From Rheinheimera sp. SA_1 (GTDB taxonomy: Bacteria > Pseudomonadota > Gammaproteobacteria > Enterobacterales > Alteromonadaceae), in NCBI RefSeq assembly GCF_001669775.1, contig NZ_LXWK01000011.1:186001-250000 (forward strand): 64,000 bases of DNA. The letters run 5' to 3'. The notes beneath the pieces were generated by a model. It saw nothing but the letters and a program-made list of their open reading frames with translations. It did no database searches and was not told the DNA's origin. The position numbers and the translations under genes were made by a program. Below, piece by piece: positions 13,043-61,538 of the stretch. Numbering within the stretch: the stretch's first letter is position 1; every line of letters begins with the position of its first letter.

Positions 13043-13170
13043 TATACCCAAAATCATTGAAGATTCGGGTAGGCGGCAACTGAACAAATCCCCGGGAGCT
13101 TAGCTGTTCTAAGTGACCGGGGTGAGTGAAGGCGGCCAACAACCCCGAACCTTCAAGGATGACGGGTATA
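13043..13170 (+). repeat. ERIC-type palindromic element, copy 1
   Basis: A 128-bp imperfect palindrome with ends TATACCC and GGGTATA. The layout follows the enterobacterial ERIC/IRU element as I remember it: TATACCCAAAAT at one end, AGGCGGCAA, ATCCCCGGGAGC, a central hairpin, GTGACCGGGGTGAG, AAGGCGGCCAAC and GATGACGGGTATA at the other end. The outer stem TTGAAGATTCGGG pairs with CCCGAACCTTCAA with one mismatch. It lies just before the sensor kinase gene in the direction of transcription. Confidence 0.85.
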
Positions 13171-13210
13171 TACAACCGGGTCAGTGCTAATAAGTATAAA
13201 GAGGTACAGT

Positions 13211-16200
13211 GTGCAGGGATCCGCGCCTGGCGTTTCGCCATCCCCCTTCAATTCATGTTGTCGCAAGCTGTGGTTATGGCTGTGTTTATCGTTGCTGGTA
13301 GTCGGCAACGTTGCTGCCACAGCCAGCGAAAATGGTTTACCTCTGCTGAAAAACTATAAGCCCAAAGCCTACAATGCCGGCACCCAAAACTGGGCCATCG
13401 TGCAGGATCAACGTGGTATTTTGTATGTTGGCAATAATGTCGGTGTGCTGGAATTTGACGGTGTGCAGTGGCAAACCATTCAAACTTCAAATCAGTCGGT
13501 TGTCCGTTCGTTGGCCGTTGGACCCGATGGCCGGATTTTTGTCGGTGCCAAAGGTGATTTAGGTTATATCGACCCTGCCGTTGGTCCGCATTTTGTGTCC
13601 TGGACCGAACGTATTCCAGAACAATACCGTGATTTTTCTGACATCCGGCAAACCTTCGTCACCCCTGCTGGCGTGATGTTTGTATCACGCCGTGATGTGT
13701 TCTTAATGAATGAACAACAGGTTCATACCTGGCGCAGCGACAGCCATTTTGGCAAAGCCTTTCAGATTGGCGAGAAAATATTAATTGTCGATGCCGAACT
13801 TGGGCTGTTGCAATTCACTGAAGGAAAGTTGCAGCCGGTTGCCGGCACTTCAGCACTGCTGAACAAAAACATTTTTGTCATTGAAGCATGGCACAATAAT
13901 CAACTGCTGATTGGCTGCCGTAACACCGGCTTTTTTCTGCTGAATGATCAAGGGCTGCACCCCTTTGCGACAGATATCGACAGCCGTTTAAATCAGACCC
14001 TGCTCTACAACAGCAAAAAATTACGCAATGGTTTACTGGCCATCGCCACGGTGCGTGACGGGGTGTTTTTGCTGAACGAGCAAGGCAAACTTGTTAATCA
14101 TCTTAATATCAATTCAGGTTTGCTAAACGACAATGTGCGCGCCATGTATGAAGATCCACAACAAGGTTTATGGCTGGCACTTGACCACGGCCTGGCGCGG
14201 GTGGAAGCATCTTCGGCGATTTCGTTATACAACCATGTCACAGGTCTTACCGGCAACGTCCACGCCTTACATCGTCATCAGCAGCAACTTTATGCTGGTA
14301 CCAGCCAGGGCTTGTTCCGGCTTGAATCAACCAGTGGCAAACAATCGGCTTTTTTGCAATTACCACAACTGAAATTTCAAACCTGGGATTTGGCCAGCGT
14401 CGGCGACGACTTATTAGTTGCCAATAACAAAGGCGTGTATCTGCTGGTCAATGAACAGGCGCAACCGCTGTTGAGTTCGCCGGTATCCAGTAAGGTGTTG
14501 TTGCAATCAAAGCAGCAGCCACAACAGGTGTGGATTGGACTACAAAATGGCCTGATGAGCTTGCGAAAAACCGCAGCCGGCTGGCAGGCTGAACCTGAAA
14601 TTGAAGGGGTGGCCGGGAATATCAACAGCCTGGTTGAAACTGCCGGAGGTGAATTGTGGGTGGGTTCGCTGGCGCATGGCATCTACCGTTTGCAGCTGCC
14701 ACCTGCCACTGCCGATCAACAACGCCCTGCACCTATTGTGACTCACTTTGGCGAGGTTCATGGACTCCCCAGTGACAATCGTAATTCAGTGTCGTTACTC
14801 GATCAGAAATTGTTAATTTCCACAGTTCGTGGTTTGTATCGTTTTGATCCAGCCAGTCAGCGGTTTTCCCCGGATAGCGCTTATCAGTCGTTGTTTACCG
14901 ATCAACCCTGGGTGCGGGCGCCGTCACGCGATAGTCAGGGGCGACTGTGGATGTTGACCTGGAGTAACCAGACCGGCGAACGTCAGGCCGGTGCCGCAGT
15001 GCCGGTAACCGCCGCTAAAACCGGTGCAGATCAGGCCACTGTACAGTCGGCTGATGGTGCTGGCTCTGGCATGGATACGAGCAGCGCCAACCTGCAGTGG
15101 ACCACGGCGCCGCTTTATCCGCTCGCCGACACGCCACTGGATGAAATTCTGATCGAATCCGACGACGTGATCTGGTTTGGTGGTGCCGAAGGTATTTTCC
15201 GCTTTGCCGCTGCCAAAAACCAAACCGAGCTTACGCCAACCCAGCAATTCCCGCCGTTAATCCGTCGGGTGCAACATCAGGGCGTGCCATTGGCGCAGCT
15301 AGCGGGTCAGCCGCTGCAATTGTCGGCCAGCCAGAACTCATTGCGCCTGGAATATACAGTGCCGCGATTTGGGCATTTGGATACCATGTTATTCCGGGTA
15401 AAACTTAATGGTTTTGAAACCGACTGGTCGAGGTGGAGCAACGAAACTTACCGCGACTACACCAACTTACCAGCCGGTCGTTATCAGTTTGAAGTGCAAT
15501 ACAAAAATGCTTTTGGCGATATCAGCACGGCCAGTCCTTATCAACTGCAGATTGTCAGCCCCTGGTATTTACGCTGGTGGGCGGTGGTCAGTTATTTGCT
15601 GCTGATTGCTTTGGGCGTGCTGTCGGTGATGCGTTGGCGGTTAAATCTGGCGCTGCGCGAGCAACAAAGGCTCAGCCTGCTGGTGAACGAACGCACCCAA
15701 CATCTGGAAAATACCATGCAGATGCTGGAGCAAGCCAAAACCAAGGCCGAAGCAGCGGCGCAGGCGAAAAGTGAATTTCTGGCCAATATGAGTCATGAGA
15801 TCCGCACCCCAATGAACGCCATTATTGGTTTTTCACAGCTCGCACAAAATACCGAATCCTTTGCTGAGCAGCAGCTATACCTTTCGAAAATCACCAATTC
15901 CAGTAAAATATTATTGAGTATTATCAATGATATACTCGACTTCTCCAAAGTCGAAGCCGGCAAACTGGAGCTGGAAAAAGTCCGGTTTCGGTTAAGCGAT
16001 ATGCTGCAGCAAGTGCGGGATTTATTTATCGAGCAAAGCCGGCAAAAACGCCTCGAATTACAGTTTAGCGTTGAGCCTGGTGTACCAGATTTTCTGGTCG
16101 GCGACCCACTGCGATTAAGCCAGGTGCTGGTGAATTTACTCAGTAACGCTGTGAAATTTACCGGAACCGGTCAGGTGACTTTAACGGTGGATCACTGTGC

Positions 16201-16915
16201 GGATCTGACCAAAACAGCACAGAGCGGCGAAGGTTGCCATGATGAAATCTGGTTGCAGTTTGCGGTCAAGGACACCGGCATTGGTTTAACGCAGGAGCAA
16301 TGTGACAATCTGTTCCAGGCTTTTAGCCAGGCCGACAGCTCGACCAGCCGAAAATACGGCGGCACTGGCCTTGGCTTAAGCATTGCCCAGCGGTTAGTTG
16401 GCTTGATGGGCGGCAGTATTCAGGTGCAAAGTGAAGTCGGGATCGGCAGTACTTTTAGCTTTAGTGCCCGTTGTTATACCGCTACAGCTGTTGCCCCCCC
16501 CCCTGGTCAGCAACCAACGGCCGCGGCCCAGGCAGGCACCTCGACAAGTGGCGCGCCGGGTCTGGTGTTGTTGGTCGAAGACAACAGTTACAACCAGACA
16601 CTGGCAAGGATCATTCTGCAGCATGCCGGTTTTTCCGTGAATATCGCTGAAAATGGTGCGCAGGCGCTGGAAATGCTGAAGGAACAATCTTATCAACTAG
16701 TGCTAATGGATGTGCATATGCCGGTGATGGATGGCTACACCGCCACCCGCGCGATTCGGGCACAAGCGCAATATGCCAGACTACCGGTGATCGCATTAAC
16801 CGCGCACGTCACGGCGGATTTCCACCAGGAATGTCTGGACGCCGGCATGAACGATTTTGTCACCAAGCCAATTGACGCCCGTACCTTGCTGGATAAAGTC
16901 CGGGAGTGGGTGTAA
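13211..16915 (+). CDS. Hybrid sensor histidine kinase with periplasmic propeller
   Basis: A membrane sensor of 1234 residues. It has a signal region (about 20-42), then about 600 residues of two-component-regulator propeller repeats ([39 protein letters not shown]), a Y_Y_Y domain, a membrane helix, and a coiled linker. Next come a HisKA domain with the phospho-accepting His in [10 protein letters not shown] (about 862), an ATPase domain ([14 protein letters not shown]) and a receiver with Asp in [11 protein letters not shown] (about 1167). There is no DNA-binding output, so another protein must act on genes. I prefer the GTG at 13211, with AAAGAGG six bases upstream, over the GTG at 13184. 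A run of ten C lies between ATPase and receiver. It is convergent with the pectate lyase gene, so it may sense pectin fragments. Confidence 0.9.
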
Positions 16916-16921
16916 TCCACG

Positions 16922-16993
16922 GTTAACATCTGGGGTCAGAGTCAATTGTTAACAGATTTTTGTTAACAATTGACTCTGACCCCAGATGTTAAC
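16922..16993. repeat. 32-bp perfect inverted repeat, bidirectional terminator or REP-like palindrome
   Basis: Arms 16922-16953 and 16962-16993 are exact reverse complements around an 8-base loop AGATTTTT. The core TCTGGGGTCAGAGTCAATT is a sequence I know from palindromes near IS200-like REP-associated transposases in marine gammaproteobacteria. Here it lies between the convergent ends of the sensor kinase and pectate lyase genes, where it would act as a strong hairpin for both transcripts. Confidence 0.85.
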
Positions 16994-17007
16994 TAACGCG
17001 AAGTCTT

Positions 17008-18240
17008 TCACTCATTCTGCTGCCATTTGGGGTAAGCCTTCAGCACCGCTGCGGCATTATTTTGATACCAGCCATAACCTTGTTGCCGCTCCAACGATAA
17101 ATCGCTGACTTTGGCTTTGATACTGCCGTCGCGATCAACAAACAGCGGTTGCTGGGTTTTTAAATCATAAAACCTGGCCCACAGTGGTTTGGCGCCTGGA
17201 GCTGCCACCAGTCGCATCCCTTTGTCGTCGCGCTCCACTTTGGTATCGAGAATTTGTTTTTCCGAAAACCAGCTCACTGCCGCTTCTACCGCTTGCACCA
17301 CAGCCGCTGATGGCCTTGGTAATTCCATCAATAACAAAGTAACCCCGGCACTTTCGCTACTGGCAAGCGCCGCTAGTTCATATGCACGCGCCGCCATCGG
17401 CTCTAAAGTTAATGGATGATGTTGCGCCGCCCAAATGGTCAGTTTGCCGTTTAATTTCACCTGCGCTTTTAACAACAATTCAGTGCCAAGCACAAACTGC
17501 TGCTGTGCCTGTTGCCGCATTTGCGTCGGCAGCAGCGCAAACTGTGGTGCCGTCGCGACATCTTTTAGCAATCTTAATAATTCCACCAATACATGATCGT
17601 TGAGAGTCAATGCATCATGATAACCACCCCGCAGCGGATAAATCTGCGCAAAACCACCATTGGGATATTGCGCCGCCAGCACAAACAATACCCCCTGCTC
17701 CAGCGCTGCTTTTATCTGAGATTTTAAGGTTGCGGGCGCATAAGGATAAAATGCCGCCAGCCAGCGTAATTGGGTGGTGGTAGCACCATTATCAAAAGTC
17801 GGAATATAGTTTTTCTCGACGCCAAACATTTGGCCGGGTTGCCGTAGCTGGCCCGCCATATCGGTTCTTTTACTCCAGCCACCGGATGGCGTCTGAAAAG
17901 ACAAAATCACTTGGGCTACCCGAATGGCATCCGGGCTTTGCAGGTATTCGATGCTTGGCTCTGGCTCAAAACCAAATTGTTTGTGCTTAAATGGCTTAGC
18001 GGCTTTGGTCTGCTTCAATGCCACCAGCTCGTGTTGCAACAATGCCTGATCCTTGGCCGCTAATGCCGTTGAGCGCGCAAAATAGGCCTGCCAGGCTGGG
18101 TCTTGCGCAACTTGTTGACGCCATTCAACACTTTGATCCTGCTCTGGATCCGTCGTTGTTGCATTGCTATTCAATGGCAGTGCTGACAACACTACCCATA
18201 CGAAAAAACACCATGAAATCCCTAAAATTTTTCTTAACAT
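17008..18240 (-). CDS. Pectate lyase, PL10 family (PelA/Pel-15E type)
   Basis: A secreted enzyme of 410 residues that cleaves de-esterified polygalacturonate by beta-elimination and gives unsaturated oligomers. The signal peptide ends near residue 28 (LNSNATTTD). Family marks are GGWSKRTDMAGQ, DNGATTTQLRWLA, a repeated helical-toroid pattern, and NGGFAQIYPLRGGYHDALTLND, with the conserved Asp and Arg of the active site. Length is close to a single PL10 domain with no carbohydrate-binding module. It follows the TonB receptor and gapN on the same strand, with about 97 bp between. Unsaturated ends it makes would feed GH105, KduI and KduD. Confidence 0.92.
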   Translation of the reverse strand: MLRKILGISWCFFVWVVLSALPLNSNATTTDPEQDQSVEWRQQVAQDPAWQAYFARSTALAAKDQALLQHELVALKQTKAAKPFKHKQFGFEPEPSIEYLQSPDAIRVAQVILSFQTPSGGWSKRTDMAGQLRQPGQMFGVEKNYIPTFDNGATTTQLRWLAAFYPYAPATLKSQIKAALEQGVLFVLAAQYPNGGFAQIYPLRGGYHDALTLNDHVLVELLRLLKDVATAPQFALLPTQMRQQAQQQFVLGTELLLKAQVKLNGKLTIWAAQHHPLTLEPMAARAYELAALASSESAGVTLLLMELPRPSAAVVQAVEAAVSWFSEKQILDTKVERDDKGMRLVAAPGAKPLWARFYDLKTQQPLFVDRDGSIKAKVSDLSLERQQGYGWYQNNAAAVLKAYPKWQQNE

Positions 18241-18337
18241 AGTTTGTCCATCTGGCTAACCAACGCGCATCCGGACTTGCTGCCAAAACCAGGTCCGGAG
18301 TGGTTCAAACAACTTGGTTCATCGAGGAAGTTACCGC

Positions 18338-21300
18338 TTAAAACGATCCACGAACCCCAACCAAATACTGGCGCCCGGTCAGCAGATATTCCACCGGACG
18401 AGACGTATATACATCACTCCACTGCTCGGTTGGCGCATTCGTCAAATTCAGCGCTTCAAACGACAACGACAGATGTTCATTAATCTGATAACGCGCCGAA
18501 AAGTTCAACTGACCTTTGTCTTCATAACCTCGGCCAAAACTGCCTTCGTCTTTGTATTTATCCAAGTACTCTTTGGTGTAACGTTCGCGGAAGTTATACG
18601 ACACCCGCGCGCCCCAGTTGTCCTGCTCAAAATACACTGTGTAGTTATAACTTAATCGCGAGGTTTCTTCGGCTAGTAAACTTGCAACCTGCACGGTAAA
18701 TGGGTCGGTAATATCACGTTTATAGTCAATCCAGGTTAGATTCGACAAGAAACCAAAACCATTCCAGGGCTCTGGCAAAAAGCTAAACGGTTGTTGGTAA
18801 ATCAATTCCAGACCTGTCACACCTTCTGCTGGTGTATTCAGCAATTGCGTGACATCCCAGGTGATGGTTGCAGGGTCAACTTCACCCAAATCAATGCCCA
18901 TCGCGCTTAACTGCTCACGCGAATACACTTCTTGCTTGGAGCCTTTACTAAGACCCGTGATGTCTTTATAAAACGCTGCCACCGCCAATAACGATTCTTC
19001 AGCAAAATACCATTCTAATCCGATATCCACCTGATTGGATTCATAAGGACGCAAGGTTGGCCCAGCGCCTTGCTCGATGGTCGCCGTTGGATCTTTGCTA
19101 TCCGGTGTATTCACTTTGATAGCCGAGGCCAAATCGGCAATCGCAGGCCGGGTGATGGCTTGGGACAAGCTAAAACGGGCGACGACATCGTCGGTTAAAT
19201 CATAGGCCAGGTTTAAAGACGGCAATACATCGCGGCTTTCACTGACCGTTTCGCGCCAGCCGTAACCACCGGCGAAATTAGCGCCATCGCCACGGCCTGG
19301 CGTGTAACCGTCGGCATAAATATGATCGAGGTTCACAATGGCCGAGGTGTTGGTATTTTCAATCACCCGTACACCGATATTGCCGCGGACATCTTTATCA
19401 AACAGAGTTTTAGTAAAATCGAGTTGCAGATAAGCACCGGTCACTTGTTCTTTGACATCATAAGTGGTGGCATAACGTTCTTTCGCTTCGAAGAAACTTT
19501 CACCACCAAAAGCGGCCAAAGATTTAGCGTAATCCGGTGTTAACCAGCTACCAGCGGTTAAGGTTGAAGAACCTGGTACCGAGGCGGCATTGCCAAAAGA
19601 AGCGCCGACATCACTCAGCGACAAGCCAAATAATGCCCCCCGTAGCCTATCTGCCGCCAGTTTTTGCACCAACGCTTCGGCGCTGTCGCCGCTGGTTTTA
19701 TTGGTGGCGGTATTCAGCACTTTCCAACCGTTATCACCCTGCACGTTGGCCGTTTCAAATACCCGGTGATTCAGACCAAACTTCAGACTGTAATCATCGT
19801 TCAGTACATATTTAAAGCTCAGGCTTAAATTGCTGTTTTCGCTGTCAATATACTGATCTTTATTTCGCGCCAAGCCAATGCTGTATAGATCCGGGTTTAA
19901 CATCAGCTGCTGTAATTGCGCAGCAGTGTAAGTCGCGCCAGGTTTTTGCGCCGGGGCAAAAGCAAAAGAAGGCATATCCATATTCATCGAACCGGCGCCG
20001 ATGCTGGTACCTTTTTGGCCAATCAATGCCACGGGGTCGATAGCACCATCAAAACTGTAGGCAAAAGTCGAGTTAAAGGAATCCAGCGCAAAAGTATGCT
20101 GAAACGGCGTCTCTAATTTCGATTCACCAAAACCGGCCAGCGCCACCAGTGATAGCGCGTCATTGAGTTGCCAGTCGGCGGTGAGCGTCACTTGATTAAA
20201 GTCAGAAGTGGACACATCTTTACGCGCTTCTGAGCGGATTGGCACGCCAGATAAAGTCGCAGCGACCACGGTATTGTTGGCATCAACGACCAGATTCTCG
20301 GCGTAAATATTGGTTTTGCTGCTGACATTACCGCGTAGCAGTGCCGAATAATGAAATTCATCCATGGTGCTATCAAGCGAAGCATGCAGCAGATCCAGAC
20401 TAAAACGTAAATCATCAGTCGCCTGATATTGCAGCGCCCCGGTTAAACCCAACCGGTCTTGGGCTTTATTAAAAATCGAATAACGCGGAATACGTGGTAG
20501 ATACAAACCTTCCATATTGGCATTGGTGTAGGCGCCTTTGGGCGACAATAAAAACACCGGCGCTGCGCTCAGTTTGTTATCTGGCGAACCGGCTTTAAAG
20601 GATGGATGGTTGATATTCCAACGCAAGGTCGTGGCACCTTCACTTTGTACCAAGCCTTCCGAATAGGCGGCAGAAAATAACACGCCAAATTTGTTGTCCC
20701 AGTTTTTGCTGAACATCATTGATGCACGCGGCGTCACTTCTTCCGCCACATCGTTGTAACGGGCGTTCAGGTTATAAGCGAATTTATCTTCCTGATACTG
20801 AAAAGGCCGCGCCGTTTGTAAATTCACGTTACCAGAAATACCACCATCTTCTAGTTCAGCGGAACTGGTTTTATTGACATCAATCTGGGTAAAGAGCTCG
20901 GAGGCAAAGACGTTAAAATCAAAAGCCCGGCTTTTATTGGCGCCGCCGGCAGCATCGGTGGCGGCTCCGGCGGATGCCGATTCCATGCCGTTAATGGTGG
21001 TTTTGACAAAGGTTGAGCCCAAACCACGCAAACTGATTTGCCGCCCTTCACCGGCGTCTTGTTCAATGGCAATGCCAGGCACCCGCGCGAGCGCATCGGC
21101 GATATTTAAATCCGGGAATTTACCTAAATCTTCCGCGAGGATAGTTTCTTTGGAGCCGACCGCTTCTCGTTTGGCCATTAACGCCACATTTAAGCTGCCG
21201 CGAAAACCGGAGACGGCGATCACTTCGATGTCTTTTTCTTTGGCTGTTGCGGCTGCTGGCTTGTTAGTATCAACTGAGCTTTGTGCCTGCGCTGTATTCT

Positions 21301-21448: not shown

Positions 21449-21524
21449 GGATATACCCTGTCTTTTTTTGTTGTGATTACAGATTCTTACTGCGACCTGC
21501 TTGTTGGTTTAAAGGCGAAAATGC

Positions 21525-21562
21525 TGCCATTGGTAGCCAAAATCATTCAGCCACCGGTGGCA
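21525..21562. promoter_or_regulatory. LacI-type operator pair before TonB receptor A
   Basis: GCCACCGGTGGC at 21550-21561 is a perfect 12-bp palindrome that matches the operators before GH28 and TonB receptor B. A weaker match (TGCCATTGGTAGCC, 10 of 14) lies at 21525-21538, so the two centres are 24 bp apart. The main site is centred about 107 bp upstream of the receptor start. Confidence 0.65.
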
Positions 21563-21580
21563 ATTAAGTTAATTAAAAAA

Positions 21581-37656: not shown

Positions 37657-37783
37657 TATACCCGTCATCCTTGAAGATACGGGGTTGTTGCCTTCGCTCG
37701 TTCGCCCCAGTCACATAGACGGCTATGTTCCTGGGGTCTCACTCACTCGGCGCCTACCCGTATCTTCAATGATTTTGGGTATT
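37657..37783 (-). repeat. ERIC-type palindromic element, copy 2
   Basis: A 127-bp element with ends TATACCC and GGGTATT, inverted relative to copy 1. The outer stem TTGAAGATACGGG pairs perfectly with CCCGTATCTTCAA. The central hairpin has CATAG-CCGT-CTATG on the minus strand inside CCCCAG/CTGGGG. It lies between IclR and LacI genes and starts 40 bp before the LacI start, in the transcript leader if the two are cotranscribed. Confidence 0.85.
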
Positions 37784-39879: not shown

Positions 39880-39880
39880 C

Positions 39881-43712: not shown

Positions 43713-46508
43713 ATGGCTGTTCAACGCTCACAATTTCGCCCCAATAAACTGGTTTCAGCCATGCTGCTGGCCGGTTTTACTTTTGGTTTCACCCCACAAC
43801 TGCTGGCACAACAAACACCGGCATCAGATGCCAAAGCGGCTGAAAAAGATATCGAAGTGATCCAGGTCACGGGCAGCTTCCGCGACAGTTTAAGCAACGC
43901 GCTGAACCAAAAACGTCAGGCCGACAGTGCCGTTGATTCCATCCTGGCTGAAGATATCGCCGACTTTCCTGATTTAAACTTAGCAGAATCGCTGCAACGT
44001 ATTCCTGGCGTGGCGATTACCCGCGCCGCCGGTGAAGGCCGGCAAATTTCAGTTCGCGGCTTAGGCCCGGATTTCACCCGTGTCCGGATTAACGGCATGG
44101 AAGCAATTTCAACCAGCGGCGGTACTGACCAGATCGGTGGTGCCAACCGTGGTCGTGGTTTTGACTTTAATACGTTCTCGTCAGATTTATTCAGCTCGCT
44201 CACCGTGCGCAAAACCGCCAGCGCCGATATTGAAGAAGGTTCGTTAGGTGCAACTGTTGACCTGCGTGCTGCGCGCCCTTTTGACTATGATGGTTTCACT
44301 TTTGCAGCTTCTGGCCAACTCGGTTACAACGATTTATCGGAAAAATCTGATCCTAAAACATCGTTTTTAGTCAGTAACATTTTCGCCGATGGCAAATTAG
44401 GTGCTTTGTTTTCAGCTTCTTATTCTGAACGCAGCTTAAAAGATCAAGGTTCAAGTACTGTCCGTTGGGGCAACGCCAACGACTTCGGTCGTTACAAAGG
44501 CAGCACAACTGCCACTGAGCTTAACGCCATCAATAATTCATTCCGGCCACGGCTGCCACGTTACGATTCGTACACCCATGAAATGGAACGTTTGGGTTTA
44601 AGCGCGGCGCTGCAGTACAAGCCAAACGACGACACCAAATTTGATTTAGATGTGCTGTATGCCAATACCGACGCTACCCGTAACGAAATTTTTATGCAGG
44701 GTATTTTAAACGCCGGTGGTAACCGTCCAACCACAGCAACAGCGGGCAATGGCATCAGCGGTGGTATGAATGTGGTGGATTATTTCATCGATGATACCAA
44801 CACCATGACCTACGGCAGTTTCGAAAATGCCACCATCCGCTCAGAAAACCGTTTTGATGAGCTAGGTACCGATTTCTCCCAAATTACCTTACACGGTAGT
44901 CATCATCTGAATGATAACTGGAAGCTTGATGGCATGATCGGCACCACCACGTCTAAATTCGACAACCCGGTGCAAACGACCTTGGTGATGGAAAAAACCG
45001 GCACTACCTTCAGCTACGACTACCGCGGTGCTGCGCGCGACAACCCCATTCTGACCTTTGGCAACAGCGTGTTTGACCCAACCGGCTGGACGTCGAACAG
45101 CGTGCGGTTACGTCCGCTGGGCGCTGAAAACGGCTTTGATACCGCAGAGCTGAATTTAGCCTGGACCCTGAACGATTACATCACCTTAAAAAGCGGCGTA
45201 CATTACAAAAAATTCAGCTTCGAAACTTATGAAGCGCGTCGTCTGACTGAAAACGGTGCTGGCATCGTCTACACACCAGACATGATTGCAACCTATAACT
45301 CTGGCCTGGGTCCGAATCCAAACTGGTTGATCCCAGACTTTGCAGCCATTGACGCTAAATATGGGCTGTACAGCAATACTGGCGCCTTTTTAGTCAGTAA
45401 AGATTTCCGTCGTCCGGACAACTATTCGGCCGAAGAAACCACCAACGGCGCATACCTGATGGCGTCATTTAACACTGAAGTAAAAGATGCGCCGCTGTGG
45501 GGTAATGCCGGGGTACGGCATGTCAAAACTGACCAAAGTTCAACAGCTTTTGCCACAGTTGGTGGTGCAGCGCAGCAACTGACCGCTGAGCACGATTACA
45601 ATGAAGTATTGCCTTCGCTGAACTTAAACTACGAGCCGTTTGAAGATGTGGTGCTGCGTTTTGGTTTTGCTGAAGTGATGGCGCGTGCCGGTTTAGGCTC
45701 GATTCGTCCGGACGTTTCAGTGTCAGTATCAGGCGGCAGCCGCTCAGTTTCTGGGGGTAACCCGCAGCTGGAACCAACTAAAGCCAAAACTTACGATTTA
45801 GGTCTGGAATTTTATTTCAGCGACGAAGCGATGTTAGGCCTGGCACTGTTCCAAAAAGATATCGACAGCCACGTGCAATCATTGCGTGAAACCAAACCAT
45901 TCACCGCGACCGGTTTACCTATTCAGGCAGCGATTGATGCTTGTACTGCAGGTCCTGGTTATGGCGGCAATTCTGGTTGTGACGAAAACGTCGACTGGCA
46001 AATCACTACCCCGCTCAATGGCCCTGGCGGCGACTTAAAAGGTTTTGAAGTCAGCTTCCAGATGCCGTTCACTGCCTTACCTGAGTTCTGGAACCGCTTT
46101 GGTTTTATCGGTAACTACACCGATGTAAAAGCGGAAATGGATTACATTAACGTCGCTGGCGTGGTGCAAGCAACCCGTGATTTACAAGGGTTAAGCCGCA
46201 GCACCACCGCAGCAACTTTGTACTACGAGCACGAAAAACTGAACGCACGGGTCAGCATGGCCAAACGTGATCGCTACCTGACTACAGCCATCGGTCGTGA
46301 CGGCAACGACATGGAAGGCACCAATGCCACCACCAATATCGATGCTTCTGTGTCCTATGCCTTCACTGACCAATGGAAACTGACTTTTGAAGCGCTGAAC
46401 CTGACTGATGAAGTGGATGATCAATGGGTCGATGATGCCGGTAACCGCCTGACTTATTACCATGAAACCGGTCGGCAGTATTATCTAGGAGTGCAGTACA
46501 AATACTGA
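43713..46508 (+). CDS. TonB-dependent receptor (pectin oligomer uptake, copy B)
   Basis: An outer-membrane receptor of 931 residues of the Xanthomonas/Caulobacter type. The signal peptide ends near residue 33 (LLAQQT). The plug contains VIQVTGSFRDSLSNALNQKRQA, EDIADFPDLNLAESLQRIPGVAI and GRQISVRGLGPDFTRVRINGM. The barrel ends in QYYLGVQYKY. The ATG at 43713 has GAGGAAGG four bases upstream. It has two LacI-type operators upstream, an ERIC-type element and terminator downstream, and the GH105, CE8 and CE12 genes following. Likely cargo is a pectin or rhamnogalacturonan fragment. Confidence 0.92.
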   Translation: MAVQRSQFRPNKLVSAMLLAGFTFGFTPQLLAQQTPASDAKAAEKDIEVIQVTGSFRDSLSNALNQKRQADSAVDSILAEDIADFPDLNLAESLQRIPGVAITRAAGEGRQISVRGLGPDFTRVRINGMEAISTSGGTDQIGGANRGRGFDFNTFSSDLFSSLTVRKTASADIEEGSLGATVDLRAARPFDYDGFTFAASGQLGYNDLSEKSDPKTSFLVSNIFADGKLGALFSASYSERSLKDQGSSTVRWGNANDFGRYKGSTTATELNAINNSFRPRLPRYDSYTHEMERLGLSAALQYKPNDDTKFDLDVLYANTDATRNEIFMQGILNAGGNRPTTATAGNGISGGMNVVDYFIDDTNTMTYGSFENATIRSENRFDELGTDFSQITLHGSHHLNDNWKLDGMIGTTTSKFDNPVQTTLVMEKTGTTFSYDYRGAARDNPILTFGNSVFDPTGWTSNSVRLRPLGAENGFDTAELNLAWTLNDYITLKSGVHYKKFSFETYEARRLTENGAGIVYTPDMIATYNSGLGPNPNWLIPDFAAIDAKYGLYSNTGAFLVSKDFRRPDNYSAEETTNGAYLMASFNTEVKDAPLWGNAGVRHVKTDQSSTAFATVGGAAQQLTAEHDYNEVLPSLNLNYEPFEDVVLRFGFAEVMARAGLGSIRPDVSVSVSGGSRSVSGGNPQLEPTKAKTYDLGLEFYFSDEAMLGLALFQKDIDSHVQSLRETKPFTATGLPIQAAIDACTAGPGYGGNSGCDENVDWQITTPLNGPGGDLKGFEVSFQMPFTALPEFWNRFGFIGNYTDVKAEMDYINVAGVVQATRDLQGLSRSTTAATLYYEHEKLNARVSMAKRDRYLTTAIGRDGNDMEGTNATTNIDASVSYAFTDQWKLTFEALNLTDEVDDQWVDDAGNRLTYYHETGRQYYLGVQYKY

Positions 46509-46666
46509 TATCCCCGTCATCTTTGACGAGCTGGGGTTGTTGGCCGCCTTCGTTCACTGGTGCGCCAGCCCGGTCCAATCGCATAGTTCACTATGCTCTG
46601 GATCGGACTGGCGTACCAGATTCACTTAGTTGCCGCCTACCCAGCTCGTCAATGATTTAGGGGATA
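46509..46666 (-). repeat. ERIC-type palindromic element, copy 3, long form
   Basis: A 158-bp member with a longer central stem. It starts one base after the stop of TonB receptor B. The outer stem TTGACGAGCTGGG pairs perfectly with CCCAGCTCGTCAA, with a sequence unlike that of copies 1, 2 and 4. The centre CGCATAG-TTCA-CTATGC is set in a long CTGG-rich stem. Ends are ATATCCCC and GGGGATA. Confidence 0.8.
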
Positions 46667-52206: not shown

Positions 52207-52234
52207 CTATCTGTTTTCCTGATAGGTTCCAACT

Positions 52235-52259
52235 TTATCTGCCAGTAAAACACAGATAA
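52235..52259. promoter_or_regulatory. Putative LysR operator between the regulator and efflux gene
   Basis: TTATCTG and CAGATAA are perfect inverted 7-bp arms separated by 11 bases, the classical T-N11-A layout. It lies in the 97-bp gap between the divergent lysR and PACE genes. Confidence 0.6.
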
Positions 52260-52303
52260 TATCAGCGGTAAATCAAGTCGTTTTGCTATACAGGAATATG
52301 ATT

Positions 52304-52768: not shown

Positions 52769-52784
52769 CAGGTGCAACTTCGAA

Positions 52785-53906: not shown

Positions 53907-54233
53907 GCATACATCCTTGAAGCCTGGAGTTTTAGGATCACTGGGTGAACCATCAATGCAGGTCATTAAATTCAATCGTTTTTCTGGTAAAACACCACAT
54001 ATATAAAGCGCGATGCAACGGCTTGCGGCCTGGCATCATACCGTTGCCGTAATGTAAATTCGAGACTTTTGGTTGCAATAAATTAGCACATTGCTGCTAT
54101 CACCATGGCGCGCCTGCTGATTGCTGATTTGTTCAACAATTTTGGCCACTATCGGCACATTTCGTCAACAGCAGTTCACTTGCAGATCCGCGAATACCCG
54201 CTAGGCTCTGTTTTATGGACAAGGAGGTTGATC

Positions 54234-55061
54234 ATGCGCGCTTTTTATTGCGATCTCACGACAGCACCGTTTGCTATAGTCTTTTTAACTCTGCTCAGCT
54301 GGTTTCCGCCGCTCACTAATGCCAGCGAACCACAACCCCCGATCCAAATTCTGACAGTCATTGAACCGCCGGCCAGCTATCTCAACAGCCACGGTGAGCT
54401 AAGCGGTTATGCCACCGAATTGGTGCAGGCACTGCAAAAACAAATACAGGATCGCAGCGATATTCAAATCATGCCGGAATCCAGGGTGTTATTGACTGCG
54501 GCTCGCCAACCCAATGTGCTGTTATTTGGCTTTTCCAGAACACAGGATCGGGAACAAAAATATCACTGGATCATGCCGTTATTGCGAAAAAGGTGGGTGG
54601 TCTATGTCCACAAAGACAGCCCGCTGCAAATCAACAATCTGGATGAACTGCGTAATCTGGACAGTATCGGCGTGGTCCGCGGTGATGTCCGCGAAGAATG
54701 GCTGACCGCACAAGGCTTTACCAATTTGCATAGTTCAGCCAGCCACGCCCAGAACCTGGCCAGACTACGCAGTGGCCGCTTAACGGCCATCGCTTACGAG
54801 CCGCAGGGCATGCAATATTTGCTCAAAGAAACCGGCCATCAGCCGGATGAATTTAAGCCAGTACTCCATTTTCACAGCTCAGAAGTCTGGTTGCTGATGT
54901 CGCGCCAAACTCACAGCAGCGAAGTGCAGCGTTGGCAATTGGCAGCAGAAGAGCTGAAATTAAGCGGTCAACCGCTGGAAATTGCCAGACACTGGCAACA
55001 ACGCCTGGCGCAAACCGAACAAATTCAAAGCACTGTACAGCAAGGTTTGTTGCAATTTTAG
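54234..55061 (+). CDS. Periplasmic solute-binding protein, SBP_bac_3 type (second copy)
   Basis: A 275-residue periplasmic binding protein with a signal peptide (ends near residue 30, TNASEP). It has the family 3 pattern: VIEPPASYLNSHGELSGYATELVQAL, FSRTQDREQKYHWIMP, LDSIGVVRGDVREEWLTAQGF and SGRLTAIAYEP. I chose the ATG at 54234 with GGAGG six bases upstream. The next gene is a chemoreceptor in the same direction, 96 bp downstream, so the pair may form a sensing unit. Confidence 0.88.
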   Translation: MRAFYCDLTTAPFAIVFLTLLSWFPPLTNASEPQPPIQILTVIEPPASYLNSHGELSGYATELVQALQKQIQDRSDIQIMPESRVLLTAARQPNVLLFGFSRTQDREQKYHWIMPLLRKRWVVYVHKDSPLQINNLDELRNLDSIGVVRGDVREEWLTAQGFTNLHSSASHAQNLARLRSGRLTAIAYEPQGMQYLLKETGHQPDEFKPVLHFHSSEVWLLMSRQTHSSEVQRWQLAAEELKLSGQPLEIARHWQQRLAQTEQIQSTVQQGLLQF

Positions 55062-55157
55062 AAAATAATCCCAGCAGAAATTAGCCAACAAATTGGAGAA
55101 ATCTTCAATCCGTGCCCATACTTGCGGCACAACAACACTCAGGACAAGGAACTTAAG

Positions 55158-56774
55158 ATGAACTTTCACAGTATCAGAGTGAAAAGCACCATTCCCATGC
55201 TGATGCTCGGCGTTACGCTACTGATCGTGGTGTCGATGTTTAGTTATTTATCAGCAATGCAACGCAGCGCTTTGGACGCGCAGGCCGACAATTTCCTCAA
55301 AGCCATTTCAGTGGTCTTAAACGCCGATCGTGATCTTTATCAGGCAAAACTGGCCACCACTCACTTTTTGAACAAGTTTGGCGATATTGAACAGCAGCGA
55401 AAAGATGTCGCCGAAAACGCCGAACAAGTCAAAGGACGTTTTGGCGAATATCTAAGTTATTTAAAAGCTTACCCTGATGTCACTAGTCAGTTCAGCCGCT
55501 TTGACCGGGAGTTTTCGCAGTGGCTACAAAGCACCAACAGTTTGATTGGCGCTGCCGATAACCAAGCCGATTTACAGGCACTGATTGCCGATGAAGAACA
55601 AAAATTTTCATCATTACGCGCGGTACTGGATGAAGCCGGTGATGCAGCTTTGCAAAAGTCCATTTCTGAACAGCAAATACTCACCGCTTCTATTTCGCGC
55701 TTTCAATGGATAACCTACGGCATCACGTTGACTATTTTGCTGATTGCCGGCTGGTTCAGTTATCAAATCCCGCGCACCTTAACCGGACAAATTAACTTCC
55801 TGACCCGGCGCATCAATGAAATCGCTTCGGGTGAAGGAGATTTAACGGCTCGGCTGAACGTGCAAAGCCGCGACGAGTTTGCCGATCTGGCTCGCGAATT
55901 TAATGGTTTTGTCGCCAATTTGTGCCAGTTGATTGCTTCAGTGCTGCAACAAGCCGGACAGCTCAGTCAGCTGACCGAACATTTATCGCAGTCGGCAAAT
56001 AACAGCAAAAACATCACCAATTCACTGAATGTGGCATCCGATTCAATTGTCAGCGCTGTGCATGAAATGACCATCGCCAATAAAGAAATGGCGGTGGTAG
56101 CCACCAATTCAGCACATGAAGCCGATCTTGCTAGCCGCAATGCCGAACAGGGCCTGCAAGTGGTGAATAGTGTCAATCAAAGCATGACGGCACTGTCCAG
56201 TGATGTCGATATGGCGCTGAGCTGTTCCACTGAACTGGAGAATAGTTCTGAAAATATCGCCTCGGTGTTGGACGTGATTCGAAGTATTGCCGATCAGACC
56301 AACTTGCTGGCACTCAATGCCGCCATTGAAGCGGCCAGGGCTGGCGAACAAGGCCGCGGTTTTGCGGTGGTTGCCGATGAAGTGCGTACTCTGGCATCGC
56401 GCACCCAACAAAGCACCAATCATATTCAGGAAATGATCCAGAGCCTGCAAAGCCGGGTCAATCAAGCGTCCGGCGCCATCAATAGCGGCAAAGCCAATGC
56501 CGATCGTACTTTGGAGTTTTTTGCCAAAGCTGATGAAGTGTTTCATCAGCTGCAGGAATCATCGCGCCGGGTCAACGATATGGCAACGCAAACCGCGGCA
56601 GCCACTGAAGAACAAAGTCTGGTGTCCGAGGAAATTACCAAAAATCTGTATGCCTTGCATGATCAGGCCAGCGCTGCGGGCGGTATTGCTGAAAGTAATG
56701 AGAAGTTGTCGGCGCAAATTAAACAGCTGTCGAATACGCTGTTTGGCTTGGTGGGCAGATTTAAAGTCAGTTGA
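55158..56774 (+). CDS. Methyl-accepting chemotaxis protein with four-helix-type sensor
   Basis: A 538-residue chemoreceptor. It has a first membrane helix (about 8-32), a periplasmic helical domain (to about 185, rich in Gln and Ala heptads, helical-bundle type), a second helix ([20 protein letters not shown]), a HAMP domain ([19 protein letters not shown]) and the conserved signalling tip ([21 protein letters not shown]). No CheR-binding tail. The ATG at 55158 follows AAGGAACTTAAG. It comes directly after the binding-protein gene. Confidence 0.93.
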
Positions 56775-56834
56775 TGTTCCGATTTTCTCGGGAGCGGTTG
56801 ATTGTATATTTTGAAATGAACAAATAGCAGCTGC

Positions 56835-56864
56835 AAAAAAGCCGGAACAAAATCCGGCTTTTTT
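56835..56864. terminator. Bidirectional terminator between chemoreceptor and grpE
   Basis: AAAAAAGCCGGA pairs with TCCGGCTTTTTT around ACAAAA. The stem with its A and T flanks acts for both convergent genes. Confidence 0.9.
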
Positions 56865-56883
56865 ACTTCAAAAAAAATACTAA

Positions 56884-57474
56884 TTAATCAGGCTTTTTCG
56901 ACACACCAACCATCGCTGGACGCAATAACCGGCCATTGAGTTCATAGCCTTTTTGCATCACAAAAATCACGGTATTGGCATCTAAATCGGCATTTGGCTG
57001 AATAGACATCGCCTGATGGAATTCCGGGTTAAACGGCTGACCTTGCGGGTCAATTTGTTGCACACCGAATTTCGCCACCGTATCCAGCATGCCTTTTAAG
57101 GTCAGCTCGACACCTTCGGCTAAAGCTTTGACGGCTTCATTGTCACGGTCGATAAAACTTAACGAACGTTCTAAATTATCCAGTACCGGTAATAAATCAC
57201 CAGCGAATTTTTCCAGAGCAAATTTATGTGCTTTTTCAACATCTTGTGCTGAACGACGTTTGCTGTTTTCAGCTTCGGCTTTCACCCGCAATGCCAGATC
57301 CTGTTGATCAGCGGCCAGTTGCTTTGCCGCAATCAGCTCAGCTTCCAATTTTGCAATGATCGCCTGCTCGCCTGATAACTGCACCGGCTCGCCGGCTTGC
57401 TCTGTGGTTTGCTGCTCCGCTGCCAGTTCGGCTGCTGTTTGCTGTTCGTTTTGCACTTTTTCTTGCTCGCTCAT
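56884..57474 (-). CDS. grpE: Nucleotide exchange factor GrpE
   Basis: A 196-residue cochaperone that releases ADP from DnaK. An N-terminal acidic, Gln-rich coil precedes the long dimerising helix ([44 protein letters not shown]-type pattern, about residues 60-110). The beta-wing ends in [22 protein letters not shown]. It is downstream of hrcA with 45 bp between, on the same strand. dnaK and dnaJ are not in the window. Confidence 0.97.
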
Positions 57475-57519
57475 CGATTAACTACTCCAAACCCAGGTCT
57501 CAAAACTTAAGTCTGGCTA

Positions 57520-58548
57520 TTATGGGGATTGTTTTGGCTGATTCAAGTGCTTTGACAATTGTTGCCCACAAGCCTCAACCAACGGGATTAATCGCGCATA
57601 GTTCATCCGTCTTGGGCCAAGCAGCGCCAGATAGCGATGCGGCTCTGCCTGATAACGGACGGTGATCACACTGACATTATGCAATTGCGCAATGCCCGAC
57701 TCGCGGCCAAGAATTAACTTGGTGCTGTCATCTAAGGTCAGTGGTTTTAATAAACTCATCAGACATGCTGGTTGTTCCAGCAACTGGATCACCTGCTGTA
57801 ATGCCGGATCTTTTTGCGATTCAGCCGCTTGCAATAAATGGTGTTGACCAAATACCAAGGGTTGGTTCTGCTGCAACTCATCGAGGCTTAATTGCCCCAT
57901 CACACCTTGCAACAGCCCGGCAATAGCGCCGGTTTCGGTTTTTAACATCAGCGCCAGCCTGGAAATACCATCCAGCCATTGCTGACCGCACAAAGCCGCA
58001 TTGAGTAGACACAAAGCACGACTTAACGTCATCGCATCAACACTTTGTTGTTGTGATAACACCCGGTGCAGAATATCGCCTTCTTCGTCAATCACCACCA
58101 ATAACAGCCGATCGGCGGCTAACCGCACCAAATCCACCTGCCGGATCACCCGGCCACTGCTTTTCGGCGGACTAAAAATACTAACCAGACCGGTGAGGTT
58201 GGCGAGCAACTGCCCGGCTTTTTGGCACAATAACGACACCGGCAGCTGTGGTTGCAGATTCTGCTGCATTTCACTGAGCCAGCGTGAAGGTAAAGGTTCC
58301 AGCTGCAACATTTTATCGATAAATAACCGGATGCCCTGGGTGGTCGGTATACGCCCGGCCGAGGTATGTGGTGAGCGGATCAAACCGAGTTGCTCAAGCT
58401 GCATCATGGTGTTACGCACTGTGGCAGAGCTGACCTGCAACGAGGTATGTTCTGAAATTGCCTTCGAGGATACCGGCGAACCATCTGCCAGATACTGCTC
58501 AACAATTAATTTCAGGATCAATTCTGATCGACTCAGGCCAAGCGTCAT
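57520..58548 (-). CDS. hrcA: Heat-inducible transcription repressor HrcA
   Basis: A 342-residue winged-helix repressor of chaperone genes. The N terminus has the HrcA helix-turn-helix (VEQYLADGSPVSSKAISEHTSLQVSSATVRNTMMQLEQLGLI, about 16-57), followed by SPHTSAGRIPTTQGIRLFIDKML, and the GAF-like inserted part. It comes just before grpE. No perfect CIRCE inverted repeat (TTAGCACTC) was seen upstream, though a heat-shock-type promoter is present. HrcA is less common in gammaproteobacteria than in Gram-positive bacteria. Confidence 0.9.
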   Translation of the reverse strand: MTLGLSRSELILKLIVEQYLADGSPVSSKAISEHTSLQVSSATVRNTMMQLEQLGLIRSPHTSAGRIPTTQGIRLFIDKMLQLEPLPSRWLSEMQQNLQPQLPVSLLCQKAGQLLANLTGLVSIFSPPKSSGRVIRQVDLVRLAADRLLLVVIDEEGDILHRVLSQQQSVDAMTLSRALCLLNAALCGQQWLDGISRLALMLKTETGAIAGLLQGVMGQLSLDELQQNQPLVFGQHHLLQAAESQKDPALQQVIQLLEQPACLMSLLKPLTLDDSTKLILGRESGIAQLHNVSVITVRYQAEPHRYLALLGPRRMNYARLIPLVEACGQQLSKHLNQPKQSP

Positions 58549-58576
58549 ACTGCCACCTTTGACTAAACACTTGCTT

Positions 58577-58604
58577 ATAGTGGGGCCTTGGCTGAAAAAA
58601 TCAA
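58577..58604 (-). promoter_or_regulatory. Putative sigma-32 promoter of hrcA-grpE
   Basis: On the minus strand a TTGATTT box and CCCCACTAT are separated by 12 bp. This resembles the sigma-32 consensus (CTTGAAA, 11-16 bp, CCCCATNT), most closely at the -10 box. It lies 29 bp before the hrcA start. Confidence 0.45.
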
Positions 58605-58704
58605 CTGCAGTGGTTTAACAAGCAGCAGTTGCCCTGTTTGCTACTGGTACAGAGCGTGAGTGCTGCGTATACTCAAAGCCAAACTTTCGCTGGATCAACA
58701 AGCT

Positions 58705-59586
58705 ATGAGCCACGCCTTTCGAACTATCGGCCTGATCGGCAAGCCCAATCATCAGGGTGCCAACCACACGCTGGTCAGTCTTTATCATTTTCTGAAACAG
58801 TATCAGCTACAGGTTTATGTCGAAGAAAAAGTCGCCGGCTCCCTTGGCCTGGACGGTGTGCAGGCGATGGATTTAGTTGATTTGGGTAAAAATTGTGATT
58901 TAGCCATCGTCGTTGGCGGTGATGGCAATATGCTGGGCGCCGCAAGAGTTCTCGCCCGATTTGGCGTGGCGGTGCTGGGCGTCAACCGCGGTAATCTGGG
59001 CTTTTTAACCGATTTATCACCGGAAAGTTTTCAAATTCCACTGGCCGAAGTACTGGCCGGTAATTACGTGAATGAACACCGTAACTTGCTGGAAATTGAA
59101 GTGCATCGCCATGACAGTATTAAAAGCAGCAACAGCGCGGTCAATGAAGCGGTATTACATGCCGACAAAGTCGCGCATATGATTGAATTTGAAGCCTATA
59201 TCAATGACGAATTTGTCTTTAGCCAAAGATCCGATGGTCTGATCGTCAGCACCCCAACCGGTTCAACCGCTTATTCCTTATCTGGCGGCGGTCCGATTTT
59301 AACGCCAGAACTGGATGCGATGAGCCTGGTGCCAATGTTCCCGCACACCTTAAGCAGCAGGCCGCTGGTGGTTTCCGGCAACAGCGAAATCCGTTTAAAA
59401 GTCGCACCAAGTAACGACGCCCACTTACAAATCAGTTGCGACAGCCACGTCATTCTGGCGGTGATGCCGGGTGATGAAATCGTCATCCGCAAACATCCAA
59501 AACCACTAAAACTGGTCCATCCGCCGGGCTACAGTTATTTTAATGTGCTGCGCAATAAACTGGGTTGGGGTTCTAAACTTTATTAA
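58705..59586 (+). CDS. nadK: NAD kinase
   Basis: A 293-residue enzyme that phosphorylates NAD to NADP. Visible are the start [17 protein letters not shown], the [20 protein letters not shown] motif (about residues 73-86), [13 protein letters not shown], and [16 protein letters not shown]. The open frame begins at 58660, but the ATG at 58705 gives the family start. It is divergent from hrcA and upstream of recN, the usual grpE/nadK/recN arrangement. Confidence 0.95.
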
Positions 59587-59670
59587 AATCAATCGTCTTT
59601 GGCAGTTGTGTTTTAACAGTTTTCTGCAATCTGAAAATTTTTCTTTTTCGAGCCTTGCCAGTCGCGCAAT

Positions 59671-59690
59671 TACTGTATAAATTCACAGTC
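59671..59690 (+). promoter_or_regulatory. LexA (SOS) box before recN
   Basis: TACTGTATAAATTCACAGTC contains CTGT and ACAG around 8 bases and agrees well with the TACTGTATATATATACAGTA consensus. It is 37 bp upstream of the recN start. Confidence 0.85.
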
Positions 59691-59726
59691 ATGAATTTTA
59701 TCCAGTAGTTTTGCCCGGAGGCCTTC

Positions 59727-61394
59727 ATGTTAACCCATCTGCATATCAGCAATTTTGCCATAGTCCGGGCGCTGGAAATTGAATGGCACGCCGGCATGAC
59801 CACTATCACCGGCGAAACCGGCGCCGGTAAATCCATTTCACTGGACGCTTTGGCATTATGTCTGGGTGAACGCGCCGATGGCACTGTCGTTCGACCGGGC
59901 ACCGATAAAGCCGATTTTGTCGCAACCTTTGATATTAGTAATTTACCTGCAGCGCAGCACTGGCTACAAAACCAGGATCTGGCGATGGGCAACGAATGTA
60001 TCGTCCGCCGTGTCGTCGGCAGCGAAGGCCGCTCCCGCGGTTACATCAACGGCGTGCAGGTGCCGGCACAACAACTTAAACTGTTAGGCCAGCTGCTACT
60101 GAGTATTCACGGTCAGCACGCGCATCAACTGTTATTAAAATCCGATCATCAACGCCAGTTGCTGGATGCCTTTGCCGATCACCCCGCCCTGCTCGCCAGC
60201 GTCAAACAACATTGGAAAAGCTGGCAGCAATTGAAGCAGGAATATCAGGAACTACAAAAATCCCAGCAACAACGCGAAGCACAGCGGCAACTGCTGGAAT
60301 ATCAGGTGGCGGAACTTGATCAATTTGCACCACAAGCCGACGAATTTTCCGCTTTGGAAAACGAACATCAACGGTTGAGCCACAGTGCACAGCTGATTGA
60401 GTCGAGCCAACAATGCCTGCAATTACTCAGCGACAGTGACGATGGCAATGTGCTCAGCTTGCTTCGACTGGCCGCGCATCAAATTTCCGATGCTTGTGCA
60501 ATAGACTCAAAGCTTGGCAGTGTCGACCAGATGTTGCAGGAAGCCTTGGTACAAGTGGATGAAGCCAGCCGTGAATTACGCCGTTATGGCGAACGGGTTG
60601 ATATTGACCCAGAGCGGCTCAGCGAAATTGATAACCGGTTAGGCCAATGGCTGACCTTAAGCCGCAAACATCAGGTTCCGAATGACCAGCTTGCACTGCA
60701 CCATCAGCATTTAAGTTCGCAACTGCTGCAGCTGGCCGGAGATGATGAACGCCTGAACGAACTGGATCTGGCCATAGCACAAGCGGCTCGTCAGTACAGC
60801 GAGACAGCAGCGACGCTCACCGAACAACGGCAACAAGCTGCGCTGGAACTTAGCTGTAAAATAGCAGCCAGCATGGCCGATTTAAGCATGCACAACGCCA
60901 GATTCCAGATTGAAGTACAGACGCTGGCCCTGGATAAAGCTAATGCGCAGGGTCTTGATCATATTGAATTTATTGTCAGCACCAACCCAGGCCAGCCATT
61001 GCAGCCGATGCATAAGGTGGCTTCTGGTGGTGAACTTTCACGGATTAGCCTGGCAGTACAAGTGATCCTCGCAGATAAAGTCACCACCCCAACGCTGATT
61101 TTTGATGAAGTGGACGTAGGCATCAGCGGACCTGTCGCTGCGGGTGTCGGCCGGTTGTTACGGCAACTTGGCAGCGCGACGCAGGTTATTTGTGTCACCC
61201 ACTTGCCGCAGGTGGCAAGCCAGGGCCATCAGCAAATGTATGTCGAAAAATATACCGATGGTATTCATACCGAAACCCGGATGCGTAACCTGAACGACGA
61301 TGAAAGAGTGCAGGAAATTGCCCGGTTACTGGCCGGTGAAAATGTCAGTGCCAGTGCTATCGCCAACGCCCGCGAACTTTTATGTACCCCTTAG
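59727..61394 (+). CDS. recN: DNA repair protein RecN
   Basis: A 555-residue SMC-like ATPase that helps repair double-strand breaks. Walker A GETGAGKS is at residues 30-37, a long coiled-coil covers the middle (about 160-370, rich in Gln and Leu), and the C terminus has HKVASGGELSRISLAVQV (signature) and TLIFDEVDVGISG (Walker B). A LexA box lies upstream, so it is SOS-induced. A GGAGG lies before the ATG. Confidence 0.96.
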   Translation: MLTHLHISNFAIVRALEIEWHAGMTTITGETGAGKSISLDALALCLGERADGTVVRPGTDKADFVATFDISNLPAAQHWLQNQDLAMGNECIVRRVVGSEGRSRGYINGVQVPAQQLKLLGQLLLSIHGQHAHQLLLKSDHQRQLLDAFADHPALLASVKQHWKSWQQLKQEYQELQKSQQQREAQRQLLEYQVAELDQFAPQADEFSALENEHQRLSHSAQLIESSQQCLQLLSDSDDGNVLSLLRLAAHQISDACAIDSKLGSVDQMLQEALVQVDEASRELRRYGERVDIDPERLSEIDNRLGQWLTLSRKHQVPNDQLALHHQHLSSQLLQLAGDDERLNELDLAIAQAARQYSETAATLTEQRQQAALELSCKIAASMADLSMHNARFQIEVQTLALDKANAQGLDHIEFIVSTNPGQPLQPMHKVASGGELSRISLAVQVILADKVTTPTLIFDEVDVGISGPVAAGVGRLLRQLGSATQVICVTHLPQVASQGHQQMYVEKYTDGIHTETRMRNLNDDERVQEIARLLAGENVSASAIANARELLCTP

Positions 61395-61410
61395 GTCAGA
61401 AGGAGGGTTT

Positions 61411-61538
61411 TAAACCCAAAATCATTGACGATTCGGGTAGGCGGCAACTGAACAAATCCCCAGGAGCATAGCTGTTCTATGTGACTGGGGTGCGTGAAGG
61501 CGGCCAACAACCCCGAATCTTCAAGGATGAAGGGTTTT
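61411..61538 (+). repeat. ERIC-type palindromic element, copy 4
   Basis: A 128-bp element in the same orientation as copy 1. The core CCCCAGGAGCATAG-CTGTT-CTATGTGACTGGGG differs from copy 1 by paired changes (CCCCGG/CCGGGG to CCCCAG/CTGGGG; CTTAG/CTAAG to CATAG/CTATG). The ends are TAAACCC and GGGTTTT rather than TATACCC/GGGTATA, and the outer stem TTGACGATTCGGG pairs with CCCGAATCTTCAA with one mismatch. It lies between recN and bamE. Confidence 0.85.

Follow-up and report, generated by a model that had tools for sequence, protein, structure and literature searches.

ERIC elements have been on record for more than 30 years. Their general properties are described in PMC2229807 (which cites the reports of 1990-91), PMC2759123 and PMC10969869, which together give TA ends, a TA duplication, hosts among the Enterobacteriaceae and Vibrionaceae, and a transfer mechanism that has not been elucidated, the last as put in PMC2759123. 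We analysed a 64,000-nt stretch of Rheinheimera sp. SA_1 (the window; the genome that it belongs to is G000) that contains four palindromes. They resemble the elements called ERIC, IRU or RU-1 in the Enterobacterales and Vibrionaceae in length (about 127 bp), in their TATACCC/GGGTATA ends, in the TA target and in intergenic position; the known core, CCCCAGGAGC...GTGACTGGGGTGAG, is likewise present, and the Rheinheimera copies form a long imperfect hairpin. Unlike ERIC as known, the SA_1 copies carry interchangeable arm modules of 15-16 bp and come in a ladder of sizes, and their host is Rheinheimera, as against the Enterobacteriaceae and Vibrionaceae named in PMC10969869. We regard this as a known family in a host group beyond those named in that review, with a mosaic build and a pattern of wobble pairs in the outer stem as the unexpected features. 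Our search of the open-licence literature found nothing on ERIC in Rheinheimera or on ERIC modules, and an earlier description is possible.

Our best explanation has three parts: the four palindromes are ERIC elements, that is, non-autonomous mobile elements of about 127 bp with TA ends and a TA target that nearly always lie between genes; the family is mosaic; and the outer stem, P3, would have to pair on the plus strand in the source copies from which others arise. Graded as a whole, with its three parts taken jointly, it appears probable, with considerable room left for doubt.

Identity, spread and target site

Blastn searches of E. coli with copy 1 gave best matches of 128/128 positions without a gap at 75% identity (E 1e-14), which agrees with an earlier sequence-only reading of the window that had placed the palindromes in the ERIC family. 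At E<=1, copy 1 matched 4547 of 5426 E. coli genomes, and 855 of them cover at least 80% of the query. It also matched 43 plasmid records; the 19 listed at that coverage (a filter, the actual coverage being at least 98%) are 70-76% identical and come from Klebsiella, Yersinia, Salmonella, E. coli, Citrobacter, Pantoea and Vibrio. R1, a covariance model built from ten ERIC copies, matched over its full length in 30 of 31 cases in records of Klebsiella, Salmonella and Vibrio. The same reading had called the genome Rheinheimera-like, and four of the five closest RecN loci are indeed from Rheinheimera (R. riviphila at 97% identity, R. texasensis and two metagenome-assembled genomes), the fifth being from a gammaproteobacterial metagenome-assembled genome. 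The relative G004 is very probably R. riviphila.

At the Rfam gathering score the window gave one tmRNA, three tRNAs and no other family. At E<=1, the sole Rfam match of copy 1 was RF02818, V_AS5 (Vibrio RNA AS5), over the full length at 35.7 bits, under the gathering score of 96, and an unrelated RNA family was excluded on this ground as the identity of the element. Three Vibrio ERIC copies (L306, L309 and L312) matched V_AS5 at 100-104 bits over positions 1-129, above the gathering score, and four enteric copies reached 38-55 bits; a copy from G069, a genome of another genus of the same family, gave no match at E<=0.01 (L222). Because the Vibrio copies exceed its threshold and the enteric ones score as they do, we take V_AS5 to be the Vibrio form of ERIC, a mobile repeat, although Rfam classes it as an antisense RNA gene.

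A covariance-model search of the genome and its relatives had been proposed as a check and did yield further copies. R1 located 137 places in the SA_1 genome, two of them opposite-strand echoes, which leaves at least 135 copies, a lower bound with 150 of 2791 first-look candidates scored. In the window it found the four copies at 110-157 bits together with weaker opposite-strand echoes, and nothing more at E<=10. All 22 of the 22 genus genomes have R1 matches, 5-144 each with echoes included. Across the GTDB family, matches occurred in 21 of 118 genomes and 15 of 52 genera (own included) under strict filters with 29 candidates scored per genome, and in a sample of the class in 7 of 369 genomes (own included), an underestimate with nine candidates scored per genome. 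The spread across family and class is patchy. Copies no more than six bases apart are arranged head to tail in 5/5 cases in the SA_1 genome (135 places) and 16/16 in G002 (120 places), with spacings from five bases of overlap to one base apart, and look like tandem duplications; in G004 one adjacent pair is inverted.

Comparison of orthologous gaps with and without the element supported the proposed TA duplication at a few sites. Fourteen sites were queried, 13 plus the recN-bamE gap that holds copy 4, and 13 aligned. At recN-bamE, the empty allele of G015 reads TT-TA-ATCTCC and the filled right junction of G007 and G018 reads GGGTT-TA-ATCTCC; here and at site 5, compared with G012, one TA stands in the empty allele and two in the filled one. 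The duplication agrees within one base at sites 2 and 7, and G004 holds an internally deleted remnant at site 5. The recN-bamE insertion is common to G000, G007, G018 and G012 and has the same orientation in all four. In G004 this gap has no element, and of a 12-base end repeat a single copy is left. We rejected its interpretation as an empty site with a 12-base duplication, since three relatives share the insertion, two of them (G007 and G018) with the SA_1 left end TAAACCC and one (G012) with TAAGCCC; for the same reason we think precise loss, through recombination of one end with the other, more likely, and an independent insertion in the SA_1 genome less likely.

Covariation and modular build

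The four window copies (copy 3 folded as 46517-46658) fold better than 200 dinucleotide shuffles on both strands, with z from -4.9 to -10.9. That paired positions change together, as the sequence-only reading held, was borne out in 116 aligned SA_1 copies, those of the 135 with E<=1e-15: in 25 of 34 pairs both sides have changed, and the covariation score is 0.191 versus 0.020-0.047 with slid partners, with 0/500 shuffles equal or above, in an alignment fitted to the tested structure and so favouring it. Mutual information was computed from the 119 copies (104 distinct), out of 127 of at least 100 bases, that have alignable outer arms. Its mean corrected value is 0.123 for 23 paired combinations, far above the -0.003 of the 506 stem-stem combinations that do not pair. 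Of the eight left-right column pairs with the highest values, six are true pairs. Amplified subfamilies with different stems could give an apparent covariation by common descent, and such subfamilies do exist, with arms linked within them. However, the unpaired combinations come from stem columns of the same ancestry and the covariation score of slid partners is a quarter of the true one at most, so that, on these comparisons of columns, passive inheritance seems very improbable.

Paired changes might also arise at the DNA level without selection, through hairpin-templated correction of one arm or gene conversion from another copy. At the site of copy 3 (site 3), the G004 orthologue, with flanks matching on both sides, has four adjacent outer-stem pairs that differ on both arms, two of them through a transversion on each arm; the differing G004 pairs are still paired, and the core is gone there. 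Segment exchange accounts for this difference as well as compensation does, and some of the covariation may reflect exchange of whole segments rather than stepwise compensation. A DNA-level origin is favoured by this site and by the differing module states at one orthologous site (below), but arm correction acts symmetrically on the strands, so it would not give the 10:0 ratio of shared G·T to A·C in the outer stem described in the next section. We consider it doubtful, though by no means far-fetched.

Pneumococcal BOX elements and the BIMEs of E. coli are mosaic repeats in which short modules are combinatorially assembled. The ERIC modules are unlike these in that they occupy fixed points in an ERIC chassis and that two of them face each other across a single stem. 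As defined from the sequences, module A is a self-hairpin in the left arm and module B an extension of the left core arm; module C extends the right core arm by one unit (C1) or two (C2). B and C pair with each other in the fold of a 159-base copy (at C1:1460398). Modules were classed by arm length: a central hairpin could be placed in 123 of the 127 copies that reach 100 bases, and 119 were classed, of which 68 have neither B nor C, 34 both, 10 B only and 7 C only, with A present alongside every class. The linkage of B and C is strong, not strict. The 135 SA_1 copies include 53 of 127-128 bases, 19 of 140-144, 28 of 154-160, six of 171-176 and three of 187-189. Six mini-ERICs, 57-70 bases long, retain the two ends, have lost the core and are probably internal deletions.

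Module states also differ at the shared recN-bamE insertion: the G000 and G007 alleles are free of modules, that of G018 contains A and that of G012 contains B plus C, the last two states coming from metagenome-assembled genomes. Because modules differ at one orthologous insertion, we conclude that internal segments are, to judge from these alleles, exchanged, gained or lost in place. A G004 copy compared at C16:238551 has other modules; its left flank is diverged and its orthology unsure.

G069 has 108 R1 matches, and 286 matches to one 16-base left end with at most one mismatch, the reversed control giving none. Its ends, TATAGTC/GACTATA, are unlike TATACCC/GGGTATA, and its core is recognisably ERIC; each of the 30 copies that R1 scores best measures 129 bases. 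Twenty G069 stretches, chosen mostly as not listed by R1, contain 24 left ends, 21 with a right end within 420 bases and three without, one of these in a stretch that ended first. The 20 elements with both right end and core measure 176-178 (10), 198 (1), 224-226 (4), 270-273 (4) and 343 bases (1), and another, of 174 bases, has the right end without the core. We attribute these length classes to the number of modules, from one and two to three or more, that sit at fixed points. Mosaic ERICs are thus, as far as their sequences tell, present in two genera, with different modules. The three left ends without a right end (L348 position 1300, L349 position 184 and L334 position 238) have a common downstream sequence and perhaps belong to a further, longer ERIC relative.

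Wobble pairs in the outer stem

What reads as a G·T pair on the plus strand reads as A·C, a mismatch, on the minus strand. Since mutation is expected to yield both at the same rate from every pair, an imbalance reveals which strand must pair. For P3 (pairs 15-25), a state was called shared if present in at least three copies and at least 5% of distinct arms, of which there were 106 in the SA_1 genome, 88 in G002, 23 in G069, 13 in enteric records and 9 in Vibrio. Shared wobble types on the plus strand in these five lineages comprise 10 G·T and 0 A·C (sign test, p=0.002; shared types versus rare cells, p=0.004). By lineage, the shared G·T types number four in the SA_1 genome, five in G002, three in G069, three in enteric copies and two in Vibrio; pooled over homologous positions they make seven, plus the three of G069. 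Rare states are balanced, at 28 G·T versus 26 A·C pooled (13:10 in G000, 9:11 in G002); the cut between shared and rare was our choice, and other cuts gave similar rare counts. Such a balance is as expected without constraint after insertion, and the statement of the sequence-only reading that folding is selected for was, for the visible copies, not supported in that form. We also rejected a strand-biased mutation rate as the cause of the asymmetry, which would appear in the rare states too. Because G·T wobbles spread with lineages and A·C mismatches do not, the pattern suggests that plus-strand pairing of the outer stem matters in spreading copies, not resident ones.

A scheme consistent with these observations would have ERICs spread from a few source copies, in which P3 of the single-stranded plus strand, as DNA or RNA, would have to pair; a copy once inserted would drift, and part of the covariation would come from segment exchange between copies. 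That ERIC moves via a strand-specific single-stranded intermediate and evolves as a mosaic of exchanged plug-in hairpin modules, both in place and during amplification, is possible rather than probable, and we propose it tentatively. REPINs are short mobile intergenic palindromes mobilised by RAYT transposases. ERIC differs from them in being a single 127-bp hairpin with TA ends, and a REPIN-like, strand-specific recognition of a single strand would account for its outer-stem wobble pattern.

The fold might instead be kept for a function of resident ERICs within host mRNAs, where they would be RNA elements that stabilise the message or offer an RNase site. This has been proposed for Yersinia, in which effects of ERIC on mRNA decay are described in PMC10969869. 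The orientation of the SA_1 copies favours this: in co-directional gaps the plus strand is in the mRNA sense in 65/79 cases (p=5e-9; 26/33 and 39/46 by gene direction). The bias was, however, not significant in samples from G002 (20/53; 86 places after array collapse, from 101 copies of 121 matches), G004 (11/17; the 30 best of 128 matches) and G069 (9/13; the 30 best), and the SA_1 genome differs from G002 at p=3e-7. Strong in one genome and not significant in the other three, it was dropped as a trait of the family. Selection on a resident RNA should moreover disfavour A·C, which the balanced rare states of G000 and G002 do not reflect, and we judge such a role to be an unlikely reason for the fold. 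In the other gaps of the SA_1 genome, the plus strand has the same direction as the nearer gene in 20/26 divergent and only 7/27 convergent cases, the right end of ERIC tending to face the nearer gene. A 2005 study reportedly found orientation preferences of Yersinia ERICs near stop codons.

Several observations weigh against spread by plus-strand pairing of a mosaic mobile element. The wobble asymmetry is confined to the outer stem and was rejected as a rule for the whole hairpin: 13 distinct B/C extensions have A·C, in either order, at five positions, in up to 9/13, and G·T at three, the G002 core has a shared A·C as well as a shared G·T, and G002 P1 has one shared A·C type. The shared types 18 G·T and 21 T·G recur across lineages, probably by descent, and the 10 types are not independent events. 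G004 (30 best copies, not pooled) has rare states only, with 4 G·T and 1 A·C cells. A clean TA duplication was seen at few of the examined sites, the flanks of relatives being too diverged at most others. Finally, neither a transposase nor a longer element sharing these ends came to light, in work that included no genome search for one; in three G069 stretches the open reading frames, inspected by eye and with no library or whole-genome transposase search, contained no recognisable transposase.

Gene context and the window copies

In the SA_1 genome, 132/135 copies lie between predicted open reading frames, two inside and one at an edge, as counted with a simple longest-frame gene finder that ignored short frames across the element. 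The four window elements lie where the sequence-only reading had placed them, with the stems and AGGCGGC repeats that it quoted; the matching ends hold as well, except in copy 4, which starts with TAAACCC and ends with GGGTTTT. Copies 1 and 4 have one outer-stem mismatch each.

Features of the ERIC copies (positions in the window, unless a contig is given)
Feature	Position	Strand	Remarks
ERIC copy 1	13043..13170	+	128 bp, no modules; 156.6 bits to R1
Copy 1 outer stem P3, left arm	13057..13069	+	fold; partner 13144-13156; helix 2 of covariation alignment
Copy 1 outer stem P3, right arm	13144..13156	+	fold; helix 2 of covariation alignment
Copy 1 core stem CCCCGG/CCGGGG and apical hairpin CTTAG/CTAAG	13090..13122	+	fold; helices 3-5
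Copy 1 direct repeat AGGCGGC, first	13071..13077	+	sequence
Copy 1 direct repeat AGGCGGC, second	13130..13136	+	sequence
ERIC copy 2	37657..37783	-	127 bp; LacI-type and IclR-type regulator genes on its sides
ERIC copy 3	46509..46666	-	158 bp, core stem extended
Copy 3 left core extension (module B)	46600..46619	-	hand-counted from sequence; paired in the fold with 46557-46576
Copy 3 right core extension (module C)	46557..46576	-	hand-counted from sequence; fold
ERIC copy 4	61411..61538	+	128 bp; recN / bamE gap
Mini-ERICs, SA_1 genome	C1:1313531, C12:302011, C21:55505, C16:440472, C22:73134, C1:1321365		

Copy 1 has a UPF0114 gene on one side and a two-component hybrid sensor gene on the other (Pfam) and is missing at the orthologous site 1 in two relatives. 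At site 2, R. riviphila (G004) lacks copy 2 and a single TA remains. The start of copy 3 directly abuts a TonB-dependent receptor gene, which ends at 46508. Copies 2 and 3 are both contained in a region (17008-51302; 18 proteins scanned) with pectin-use genes and regulators, including a pectate lyase, TonB receptors, a KduI-type isomerase, a TRAP transporter, GH88 and a GDSL-lipase. Near copy 4, GCTTGCGGTATGATG (61551-61565), upstream of bamE, is kept in 22/22 genus genomes whatever the state of the ERIC site and is perhaps the bamE promoter. An independent insertion in G011 (L124) lies at the 3' end of recN in the opposite orientation; the RecN match there ends three residues before the query end, and the ERIC probably supplies a new end to RecN.

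If it is true that spread needs pairing of one strand, the search for the mechanism of ERIC transfer would narrow to single-strand or RNA-based routes and become testable. The hosts in which to study it would be G069, with its many near-identical copies, and Rheinheimera, with its well-kept ones, both of them environmental. Recognition of RF02818 as ERIC would correct the label of an RNA family, and the mosaic structure of the elements offers a natural module-swap experiment.

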